DNA of 64,000 nt. It comes from Antricoccus suffuscus. GTDB lineage: Bacteria > Actinomycetota > Actinomycetes > Mycobacteriales > Antricoccaceae. The first letter of the stretch is position 1. Each line of letters begins with the position of its first letter. The notes under the pieces are model-generated. The model did no database searches and had not been told where the DNA came from. It saw only the letters and a list, made by a program, of their open reading frames with translations. The position numbers and the translations under genes were made by a program. Shown here piece after piece: positions 16,871 through 18,857 of this stretch. Where the stretch lies: the NCBI RefSeq assembly GCF_003003235.1, contig NZ_PVUE01000021.1:1-64000 (forward strand), read 5' to 3'.

Positions 16871-16943
16871 GCCGACCTGGCGCAATTGGCAGCGCATCTG
16901 TCTTGTAAACAGAGGGTTGCGGGTTCGAGTCCCGCGGTCGGCT
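16871..16943 (+). tRNA. tRNA-Thr (anticodon UGU)
   Basis: Complete cloverleaf: acceptor GCCGACC/GGTCGGC, D-arm with GCGC/GCGC, anticodon stem TCTGT/ACAGA enclosing loop CTTGTAA with anticodon TGT (16904-16906), a 5-nt variable loop, T-arm GCGGG-TTCGAGT-CCCGC and discriminator T. CCA is not encoded. Its 3' half doubles as the left attachment site of an integrated element. Confidence 0.95.
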
Positions 16944-16944
16944 C
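16899..16944. repeat. attL: 46-bp direct repeat inside tRNA-Thr
   Basis: The segment from the anticodon stem to one base past the discriminator is repeated base-for-base at 18812-18857. tRNA 3' halves are classic targets of tyrosine integrases; restoring the tRNA on integration leaves such a repeat. Confidence 0.9.
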
Positions 16945-16982
16945 CGCTGATCGGGCCGTAAAGCCACCTGGTCAGAGCATAG

Positions 16983-17021
16983 AAATGGTCCCTCCCTAAT
17001 TCGTGTAGGGAGGGACCATTT
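16983..17021. terminator. Rho-independent terminator, perfect 16-bp stem
   Basis: AAATGGTCCCTCCCTA (16983-16998) pairs perfectly with 17006-17021 around a 7-nt loop. The arms end in TTTT on the plus strand and begin with AAA, so it can stop both tRNA-Thr transcription (plus) and the integrase remnant (minus). Confidence 0.85.
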
Positions 17022-17028
17022 TGTCTCT

Positions 17029-17050
17029 GGTCACAAATCTTGGTCACAAA
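17029..17050. repeat. Left pair of GGTCACAAA repeats (candidate integrase arm sites)
   Basis: GGTCACAAA begins at 17029 and again at 17042, 85 bp inside attL and beyond the integrase stop codon. The same word occurs as a pair near attR in the same orientation, the layout expected of P/P' arm-type integrase sites. Confidence 0.65.
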
Positions 17051-17063
17051 TGACCGAAAACGG

Positions 17064-17189
17064 TCAAACCGCGAATATCCGCCCGGCTACCTCGGCCGCT
17101 GCTGTTGCGCCGTCGTCGTCTGTGACCAGATAGAACCGCGAGTACGTCGCGACGTCGTGCCCGAGCAGTGACACTAGCCAGGCAAGGCG
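17064..17189 (-). pseudogene. C-terminal remnant of a tyrosine recombinase (integrase)
   Basis: On the minus strand, about 41 codons read RLAWLVSLLGHDVATYSRFY...VAGRIFAV and end at TGA (17064-17066). LLGHDVATYSRFY resembles the C-terminal LGH...TxxxY box, where His and the nucleophilic Tyr sit. An in-frame TGA just upstream (17190-17192) ends any homology, so catalytic Arg residues and the rest are gone. Position beside the tRNA att site and orientation toward it fit an integrase. Homology is judged by eye. Confidence 0.6.
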
Positions 17190-17572
17190 TCAAAACGGAT
17201 GAGTACGTGTTTAGTTCGGCTGGCGCCAACCGTCTGGCGCGGTCGCTGTGGGGAGCCCTGCGAGACCGCGCACTCGACCTGCCCGACGACGCCGAGTTGC
17301 GCGATGAGTTCATCGCAACGCGCCTGGTGGAGACGGCGCCCGGAGTGGTCAAGATTCAAAACCCGGCCGGATCTCACGACGACATCGTGACCGCCGTCGC
17401 GATGGTCGTCGCGGACCTCGCGAACATGCCGGACGTCGGCCGGGGGTCGATCGCGGTGCCGCACGGACGGGTCCGGAGGCAGTACGGCTCACTATCTACG
17501 CGAGACCGACTTAGACAGGGCGCCGTCGGGCCGCTCGCGGATCGTGCCTGGCCCAGGCGAGGCTTTGCTTAA
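17168..17572 (+). pseudogene. C-terminal fragment of a phage terminase large subunit
   Basis: The 134-codon frame contains SLWGALRDRALDLPDDAELRDEFIATRLVET and GSHDDIVTAVAMVVADLA, typical of the C-terminal RNase H-like nuclease part of terminase large subunits, with the acidic HDD of the active site. The ATPase half is missing. The first dozen codons overlap the integrase tail antisense, marking the deletion junction. The last about 40 residues look unlike the family. Translation as a protein is doubtful. Confidence 0.6.
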
Positions 17573-17622
17573 AGAGCCGGTACTCGTACGGTGAGGGCCT
17601 CGACCAATTGCGGGGGCAGCCA

Positions 17623-17850
17623 ATGGTCATGCAGAAGATTAGCGATTTTTTCGCGTACAACCCCGACCCGGGGGGCGAATCGGGTGGAGGCGGATCGACG
17701 ATCGTTTTGATTCTGATTTTCGCTGTGCTTGTTTTGTCGCTCACTGTGGCTGGCCGCAGGATACAAGACAAGGAGCGGAGAGAAGTCGAGAAAGAAATCG
17801 ATAGACTCAATGGACGCAACACACCGCGAGCGAGTCCGGAGGAGGACTAG
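17623..17850 (+). CDS. Small single-span membrane protein, unknown
   Basis: 75 aa from ATG 17623, with a GGGGGC stretch shortly upstream; ATG 17629 or TTG 17608 are alternatives. Layout: polar N-terminus (MQKISDFFAYNPDPG), Gly-rich GGESGGGGS, one transmembrane helix (about 28-48, IVLILIFAVLVLSLTV), then a charged tail rich in K, R and E (RRIQDKERREVEKEIDR) that may form a coiled coil. It lies inside the tRNA-Thr element as cargo. Holin-like or defence/toxin roles are possible; nothing diagnostic is seen. Confidence 0.55.
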   Translation: MVMQKISDFFAYNPDPGGESGGGGSTIVLILIFAVLVLSLTVAGRRIQDKERREVEKEIDRLNGRNTPRASPEED

Positions 17851-18023
17851 CGGAGGGAAGGTCGCGAGGAGTTCCGTACGGGCTGCCCGACGGAAGTGAT
17901 CCACCACGGTCTTGGTGCCTATCACTATTCGCGTCGACCGGGGCTGGCGGACGGAGCGATGAGAAGGCAAGTACGTCTGCTAGCGATTGCGAGCGAACAG
18001 TCAGGCGCGCTACGTTGAACAAC

Positions 18024-18632
18024 GTGTCTGGTCCAAGTTTGGTGTTTACCGAGAATGCCCTTGACCGCGCCGATCGGGTGCTGGCCGACCAACGAGGCCG
18101 AGTCGGAGCGGGGCCCAGTTTCAATGATTACGTGCCGTACGTGTTCGACTGTGCATGCGCTGTGGCCCGCACTCTTAACGCTGAAGCAGCGCCTGCCCTC
18201 AAGGTGAACCAAGCGATGGCGGACTGGTGGAGAGGCTTACACGACGATGAGGAACTCAAACACGTCCGAATAATCGGACGGAATGGCGAATTGAAGGGGG
18301 GAATCCGGGCTCTATATGAGCAAATGACGATGACAGGGCCGGAGGCGAACTTGGTCGTCGGGCCGATCTATTTCGAATCAGTTGCCGCTGATGGCGGGAG
18401 GCACAGAGGCGGAGTCAAACATGTCCTGTCAGCGGCGGAAGGAACCTTGATCGAATGGATGTTCCGCTCAGGCCCTTGGGAAGACCTGGAGTTCTTTGCT
18501 TGCATGGAGAAGTTTCTGCAGCGCTGGCGCTCTGAGATTCTGCCAGCGGCAAATGCGTACGTTGCCGCGACGCCTGGAACGCCCACCTCAAATGAATGGA
18601 CGGAGTACTTTCCACCGGAAAGTGACTCTTAG
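18024..18632 (+). CDS. Hypothetical cargo protein of the tRNA-Thr element
   Basis: 202 aa, soluble, mixed alpha/beta composition and rich in W and aromatics (MADWWRG, EWMFRSGPWEDLEFF, TSNEWTEYF). I recognise no domain. TACGTT stands 7 nt before GTG 18024 without a Shine-Dalgarno, so I start there rather than at TTG 18015. Codon use is less GC-biased than in flanking genes, consistent with transfer. It is the largest intact gene of the element, which makes it the likeliest reason the remnant persists. Confidence 0.6.
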   Translation: MSGPSLVFTENALDRADRVLADQRGRVGAGPSFNDYVPYVFDCACAVARTLNAEAAPALKVNQAMADWWRGLHDDEELKHVRIIGRNGELKGGIRALYEQMTMTGPEANLVVGPIYFESVAADGGRHRGGVKHVLSAAEGTLIEWMFRSGPWEDLEFFACMEKFLQRWRSEILPAANAYVAATPGTPTSNEWTEYFPPESDS

Positions 18633-18690
18633 CGGACCGATCCTGGGGTACACGGCAGTTGGATCTGAAGCGAGGGGACGTTAACCGCGT

Positions 18691-18711
18691 GGTCACAAAC
18701 CTGGTCACAAA
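18691..18711. repeat. Right pair of GGTCACAAA repeats
   Basis: GGTCACAAA begins at 18691 and 18703, about 100 bp inside attR, in the same orientation as the left pair. In a circularised element the two pairs would flank the att core. Confidence 0.65.
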
Positions 18712-18715
18712 CGGC

Positions 18716-18746
18716 GAGATACGAGACGATACGAGACGATACGAGA
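18716..18746. repeat. Three 10-bp tandem repeats (candidate excisionase sites)
   Basis: Units of the type ACGAGACGAT repeat with a 10-bp period (two exact copies, flanked by partial ones) between the arm-type pair and attR. Helically phased short repeats beside one arm are typical of Xis binding regions; no xis gene remains. Confidence 0.5.
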
Positions 18747-18811
18747 AAGTACGGAATTTCTTAGTTGCCAGATATAAAAGCGAAGTAGGCGCGACTAGGG
18801 ACACCAGGCCG

Positions 18812-18857
18812 TGTCTTGTAAACAGAGGGTTGCGGGTTCGAGTCCCGCGGTCGGCTC
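18812..18857. repeat. attR: right 46-bp copy of the tRNA-Thr 3' half
   Basis: Identical to 16899-16944; preceded by element DNA unlike the tRNA 5' half, so it is not a second tRNA gene. Chromosomal DNA resumes after it. Confidence 0.9.

Follow-up and report, generated by a model that had tools for sequence, protein, structure and literature searches.

In most descriptions, remnants of mobile elements that are bounded by attachment (att) sites figure either as junk or as cargo that might one day be mobilised in cis. Here we describe an insert of 1.9 kb in a tRNA-Thr(TGT) gene of Antricoccus suffuscus, lying in a 64,000-nucleotide stretch that we call the window (G000:C21:1-64000), and we consider it likely to stem from a prophage by recent deletions that spared the recombination sites and removed the recombinase; if the insert can still be excised, this would have to happen in trans. 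The source assembly (4.68 Mb, 43 contigs, 97.8% complete) is the sole member of its genus among the genomes compared.

Several described systems come close to this locus. In Streptomyces, leftovers of actinomycete integrative and conjugative elements (AICEs) consist of partial integrases and cargo between direct repeats, for which the authors suggested later mobilisation in cis (PMC9513070). Cis-mobilisable elements (CIMEs), in the passages of PMC5704250 that define them, are decayed integrative and conjugative elements (ICEs) or integrative and mobilisable elements (IMEs) that have lost their integration and transfer genes and kept attL and attR. For the 13-kb microcin H47 island, which has no recombinase of its own, the relevant sections of PMC3191183 report that excision and integration were shown experimentally. 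Loss of the recombinase is presented, in the pertinent part of PMC11389934, as one way in which elements come to hitch-hike on others, and PMC6957869, where it treats recombination units, shows that whole units are exchangeable between elements.

Attachment sites, arm-like pairs and two gene tails

A repeat search found the two copies of the attachment core to be identical at 46 of 46 nucleotides with a spacing of 1913, delimiting 1.9 kb; both come from the target gene, and one of them restores the tRNA (Table 1). Inside the insert the motif GGTCACAAA starts at 17029, 17042, 18691 and 18703, all four copies being perfect and on the plus strand. Five copies lie in the 64 kb against 0.31 expected, a number reached by none of 100 shuffles, and pairs with a gap of 1-12 occur twice in the whole genome assembly, both times in this element (reversed control, 0). 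The identical 46-bp repeats around 1.9 kb, the GGTCACAAA pairs flanking the insert in the same orientation and the 10-bp phased repeats near attR, all claimed in a preliminary description of the window made from its letters, are thus borne out. We infer that the pairs bind an integrase, and the phased array may be the binding site of a directionality factor, while the hairpin just inside attL is probably a terminator supplied by the element for the tRNA. GC content is 64.3% in the window versus 59.3% in the insert.

Could such a layout arise with no mobile element, from a partial duplication of the tRNA gene and chance matches to the motif? Fragments of tRNA elsewhere do resemble the core through ordinary tRNA similarity, but the second copy is exact over 46 bp, shuffled elements average 0.01 copies of GGTCACAAA against four in the real element, the same layout recurs in three other genomes described below (G002, G079 and G187), and three relatives have no second core. 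We therefore find this explanation hardly credible.

Next to the left arms lie the ends of two genes. The plus-strand tail is similar, from about position 17180 to its C-terminal end, to the C-terminal part of long open reading frames (ORFs) in G154 (E 3.8e-12) and G060 (E 2.1e-10), both of which carry PF03354 (TerL_ATPase). By these alignments the tail (17180-17572) is proven to be the C-terminus of a terminase large subunit (TerL), and the element thus contains a recognisable phage gene. In profile scans it gave a weak match to phrog_38 (E 0.28) and nothing in Pfam; among phage records, searched up to E 10, the best hit had E 0.7, the features being mostly named portal protein, with no useful match, and a search of viral contigs also returned nothing useful.

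The minus-strand tail (17064-17177) is probably derived from a tyrosine integrase, judging by motif and position. Its positions 17067-17177 translate as LVSLLGHDVATYSRFYLVTDDDGATAAAEVAGRIFAV, with the stop at 17064, and contain LLGH-x8-Y, in which the nine-residue His-Tyr spacing is that of the same genome's XerC/XerD-type proteins; this motif occurs once in the six frames of the window and in 0 of 500 shuffled elements. Similarity to the catalytic tail of an integrase beside a GGTCACAAA pair in a viral contig (L057; 53% over 19 amino acids (aa), E 1.1) is not significant alone. Of the two gene tails for which the preliminary description had proposed a profile test, the terminase accordingly stood through its full-length relatives in G154 and G060 and not through profiles, and the integrase at motif level only.

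The two tails abut to within about 2 bp, each still ending at its stop. In both G060 and G154 the integrase gene points into tRNA-Met and the TerL gene points away from it, a gene order from which a single deletion would yield the integrase-TerL fusion of the window. Both genomes have prophage-like regions at tRNA-Met (L123 and L129 in G154, L124 and L128 in G060), which contain an integrase and the TerL sequences most closely related to the tail in the window.

Table 1. Features of the element and its attachment gene, with positions in the window.
Feature	Position	Strand	Basis
tRNA-Thr(TGT), attachment gene, complete tRNA despite the insertion	16871-16945	+	ARAGORN; Rfam tRNA 68.7 bits
attL core, 46 bp, 3' part of the tRNA	16899-16944	+	100% identical to 18812-18857
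Perfect 16-bp hairpin just inside attL	16983-17021	+	Inverted repeat; fold z -6.1; homologous in G002
Left arm-like pair GGTCACAAA-4-GGTCACAAA	17029-17050	+	Motif search; 84 bp after attL core
Last 37 codons and stop of probable tyrosine integrase, starting LVSLLGHDVATYSRFYLV, reading towards attL	17064-17177	-	Motif, spacing, position
TerL C-terminal tail, unbroken to stop; open frame listed from 17168	17180-17572	+	Alignment to full-length relatives
73-aa ORF with one apparent membrane-spanning stretch; 80 aa (ORF80) from upstream TTG at 17608	17629-17850	+	ORF list
205-aa orphan ORF (ORF205)	18015-18632	+	ORF list
Right arm-like pair GGTCACAAA-3-GGTCACAAA	18691-18711	+	Motif search; 100 bp before attR core
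10-bp phased direct repeats GATACGAGAC x 2.9, between right arms and attR core	18718-18746	+	Tandem Repeats Finder; repeat search
attR core, 46 bp	18812-18857	+	Exact copy of 16899-16944

Like an integrase-less island, the 1.9-kb element has no recombinase gene: the profile PF00589 has no match on the window's contig, and the insert holds no integrase gene. Elsewhere in the genome PF00589 matches at three places, two of them XerC/XerD-like and the third a 332-aa XerC-like protein on contig C18. This recombinase, encoded near a contig end (L092 5006-6004, G000:C18), is the genome's only PF00589 protein beyond the XerC/XerD-like pair; it was rejected as a helper because its stretch lacks GGTCACAAA and has single TGTGACC 7-mers only, and because no arm pair lies outside the window. 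No helper integrase with GGTCACAAA-type arms was found in the genome, of which the assembly covers 97.8%, so that one could be missing, and no tandem element was seen beside the insert.

A cousin insert in another genus and the proposed origin

Five genomes of the family were compared, the source genome included, and one of them, G002, belongs to another genus. It carries an insert in tRNA-Thr(TGT) (L025 2901-5515) that is bounded by an exact 43-bp repeat and measures 2541 bp core to core. Outside the tRNA, the left ends of the two inserts align over 94 columns with a score of 92, against a mean of 19 and a best of 32 in 300 shuffles; the right ends agree more weakly (44 against a best shuffle of 42), and the cargo, compared as a control, gave no excess over shuffles (z 0.9 and 0.1). 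The cargo of G002 comprises a Fic protein with a SoFic match (E 8.1e-55; Pfam Fic 6.3e-17) and a 242-aa ORF, with no integrase match inside the insert. As far as alignments tell, a second genus has an insert with a homologous left end and unrelated cargo at the same tRNA gene, which is a new observation. Its arms have decayed, with one perfect copy of four.

The three other family genomes (G018, G041 and G031) have the tRNA, but the downstream sequence, searched over 7.9, 11.7 and 7.8 kb respectively, contains no second core and shows no left-end similarity (z -0.6, 0.0 and 1.0), and these relatives with an unoccupied site indicate that hairpin and arms came with the elements. The 46-bp duplication without an insert, an outcome that the preliminary description had asked about, was seen in none of the related genomes, as G002 holds another insert and the other three lack the second core.

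We favour the following origin for the element. A prophage with a tyrosine integrase would have entered tRNA-Thr(TGT) with its integrase gene next to attL; a deletion would then have joined the 3' end of the integrase gene to the 3' end of the terminase gene, and further loss would have nearly emptied the region from the terminase stop to the two small genes near attR, making two or more deletions overall. The 1.9-kb product would retain both cores, both arm pairs and a hairpin that replaces the terminator of the tRNA, and with no recombinase it would have no mobility of its own. An incoming related integrase, for instance from a new phage or an AICE at the same tRNA, could in principle excise it in trans; alternatively, it could be carried in cis after tandem integration. 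Given a matching integrase and directionality factor, the element would be expected to leave as a circle and to restore the empty tRNA gene. We infer the order of the deletions, their recency and the excisability of the element. Recency is suggested by the identical cores, the perfect arms and the frames unbroken to both stops, and since recency alone accounts for intact arms, these are no proof of continuing use.

Several results weigh against this proposed origin. Portal, capsid and tail genes are absent from the element, and its ancestor may have been a phage satellite carrying TerL; with regard to satellites of the phage-inducible chromosomal island (PICI) type, the element has no integrase gene, and family scans found no regulatory or replication family in it. 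Neither Pfam nor PHROG matches the integrase-like tail at E <= 1, phages contain no match to it, and its best other hits among 200 genomes do not look like integrases. An intact ancestor at the same tRNA-Thr site was not found by the attL and attR patterns: in genome contigs of 84,980 species the attL-layout pattern returned one Roseburia stretch without a tRNA, judged to be chance, and in 394 genomes of the class (G002 not included) the attR-layout pattern returned the source genome only. As to the cousin insert, a blastn-type search with the left end alone at E <= 0.01 did not return G002, which a longer query first revealed, and the stretch beyond attR, compared between the window and G002, gave a z of 2.4 (reached by 10 of 300 shuffles), which makes it an imperfect outer control.

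A satellite mobilised in trans by a related integrase, an idea also put forward in the preliminary description, is conceivable in principle, but the genome yielded no helper integrase accompanied by such arms, and the arms of G002 point to decay.

Other elements with the same arm pairs

Among 298 genomes of the order, the GGTCACAAA pair has three carriers, the source genome (twice), G079 (twice) and G187 (once), with 0 of 298 for the reversed control. The insert in G079 (L083 4644-11918) is 7.2 kb long and lies at tRNA-Met, with intact TTTGTGACC pairs at both ends and cores that have diverged (39 of the 41 positions compared agree; 84% over 68 nt). Its cargo includes an IS481-type transposase and an HD protein. 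It also matches HmaA (1144 bits, profile 2-848 of 1176) as well as HmaB (profile 300-538 of 967), a system that looks truncated, and no PF00589 match at E <= 1 lies inside. Taken together, the diverged cores, the transposase and the truncated HmaA/HmaB represent the same kind of decay as in the window element. In G187 (L084 12885-19501 and L131 1-5240) an 11.8-kb insert at tRNA-Met has 3 mismatches of 48 in its second core, and its second (right) arm pair has changed to CTGTGACC. By its gene content this insert is an AICE of the pSAM2 type, with an integrase carrying Arm-DNA-bind_4, RepSA (E 3e-151), FtsK/SpoIIIE and GntR, and with SUKH, AAA-ATPase and C5-methylase genes near attR.

A strong hairpin stands between the tRNA core and the left arms in 4 of 4 elements (z -6.1, -6.6, -7.2 and -6.4), and none is clear at the three unoccupied sites (z -2.1, -0.4 and 1.6). 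Beyond attR, G079 and G187 show a strong hairpin (z -5.8 and -5.1), and the window and G002 show no strong one (z -0.8 and 0.8). It is as if the hairpins of all four elements gave the tRNA a new terminator.

The motif itself reaches further. In IMG/VR viral contigs (L031-L079), GGTCACAAA pairs occur in 49 stretches, and in L048 and L053 they face each other; by motif, very different tyrosine integrases adjoin the pairs in five of the 49 (L037, L042, L057, L062 and L079), and many loci show none. The pairs were for this reason rejected as a sign of kinship, and GGTCACAAA is possibly a widely shared arm motif. The left-end pattern had 0 matches in viral contigs.

In another reading, these elements would form a family of mini-islands that lack an integrase, have recombination ends conserved among them and can exchange their defence-type cargo; phage or AICE integrases that recognise GGTCACAAA-type arms would regularly move them in trans. 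The window and G002 share their ends and differ in cargo, the cargo of the cousins is defence-like (SoFic in G002, HmaA/HmaB in G079, AAA-ATPase and C5 methylase in the G187 AICE), all four arms of the window are perfect, and the microcin H47 island, in the account that PMC3191183 gives of it, is a precedent for excising and integrating without an own recombinase. An integrase is absent from three of the four two-ended elements (G000, G002 and G079) and present in G187, in a sample that is small and unevenly found. On the other hand, the broken integrase-like and terminase tails of the window element mark deletion, G002 keeps a single perfect arm of its four, G079 combines truncated cargo matches with an insertion-sequence transposase, the source genome offers no helper, and the cargo of the window has no defence-family match; moreover, there are four elements only, and G002 was located via the window's own sequence. 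We regard such a family as unlikely. The wider proposal is that this order carries recombinase-free mini-islands, each made of a tRNA core, an own terminator hairpin, a GGTCACAAA arm pair at either end and one or two genes that can be exchanged and often act against phages, and that phage or AICE integrases spread them in trans; it seems to us distinctly unlikely. If such a class were real, the orphan 205-aa protein would be a candidate for an unknown defence gene.

Remaining genes and comparison with known systems

Between the sites the preliminary description had noted two unknown genes, and neither has a useful family match: the best Pfam E was 0.086, below the curated cut-off, PHROG gave 0.1 or worse, and NCBIfam and PADLOC gave none. 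ORF80 has no relative in phage records, and ORF205 has none in phages, viral contigs, the 298 order genomes (its own excepted), genome contigs or plasmids, nor any homology to the 242-aa ORF of G002. A single-sequence structure model of ORF205, with a mean predicted local distance difference test (pLDDT) score of 43, was too poor for use. Its GC by codon position (0.62/0.47/0.63) suggests that it is coding.

A second suggestion of the preliminary description, domestication, would mean that the host keeps the insert for the usefulness of one small gene and that the recombination sites are left over. The codon-position bias of ORF205 and its open run of 275 codons fit this, but a run as long or longer was found in 21 of 500 element shuffles, the lack of relatives in any collection searched means that conservation cannot be shown, and four perfect arms are unexpected in a long-kept domesticated remnant. 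Positive evidence for domestication was not found, and we consider it very improbable; the preferred reading of the element remains that of a prophage cut down by recent deletions.

On a practical matter, with the recombination sites all retained and a cousin of different cargo in another genus, the question of whether a foreign integrase can mobilise such an element is reducible to a simple excision assay. Furthermore, the shared ends, i.e. the hairpin and the paired arms, provide a search handle for elements missed by integrase-based surveys.

Compared with the described systems, the element resembles the decayed Streptomyces AICEs (PMC9513070) in that cargo and a partial integrase, here a probable one, lie between direct repeats where integration took place, and in that other strains have empty sites. 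There, however, an intact copy in that position served to infer the AICE ancestor, whereas here the terminase tail suggests a phage and no intact copy turned up. Like CIMEs as PMC5704250 defines them in the passages concerned, the 1.9-kb element keeps attL and attR and has lost its integration genes, but we rejected its membership in that class because it does not show the descent from an ICE or IME that the definition includes: the remnant is TerL, and the family scans of the ORFs found no conjugation or RepSA-type gene. With the microcin H47 island it has in common that it is small, flanked by direct repeats and without an own recombinase; that island, in the sections of PMC3191183 devoted to it, is 13 kb long, has extensive imperfect flanking repeats and was shown by experiment to excise and integrate. 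The prophage-like elements of Mycobacterium, in the portion of PMC3986857 that deals with them, are likewise reduced prophages between short att-like repeats, some of them at tRNA genes, but those described there keep at least 8 ORFs with several phage genes. With the AICE of G187 the element shares a tRNA as its site, the hairpin, the paired arms and the direction of the integrase (in the element, of the probable integrase tail) towards the tRNA, and a decayed right pair lies about 118 bp before the second core of that AICE; it differs in that the AICE is 11.8 kb long, has integrase, RepSA, FtsK and GntR genes and carries arms that face the other way with respect to its tRNA. Mobilisation in trans and domestication remain hypotheses for the 1.9-kb element; as an att-bounded remnant, a kind of element that is already known, it is a clear example.

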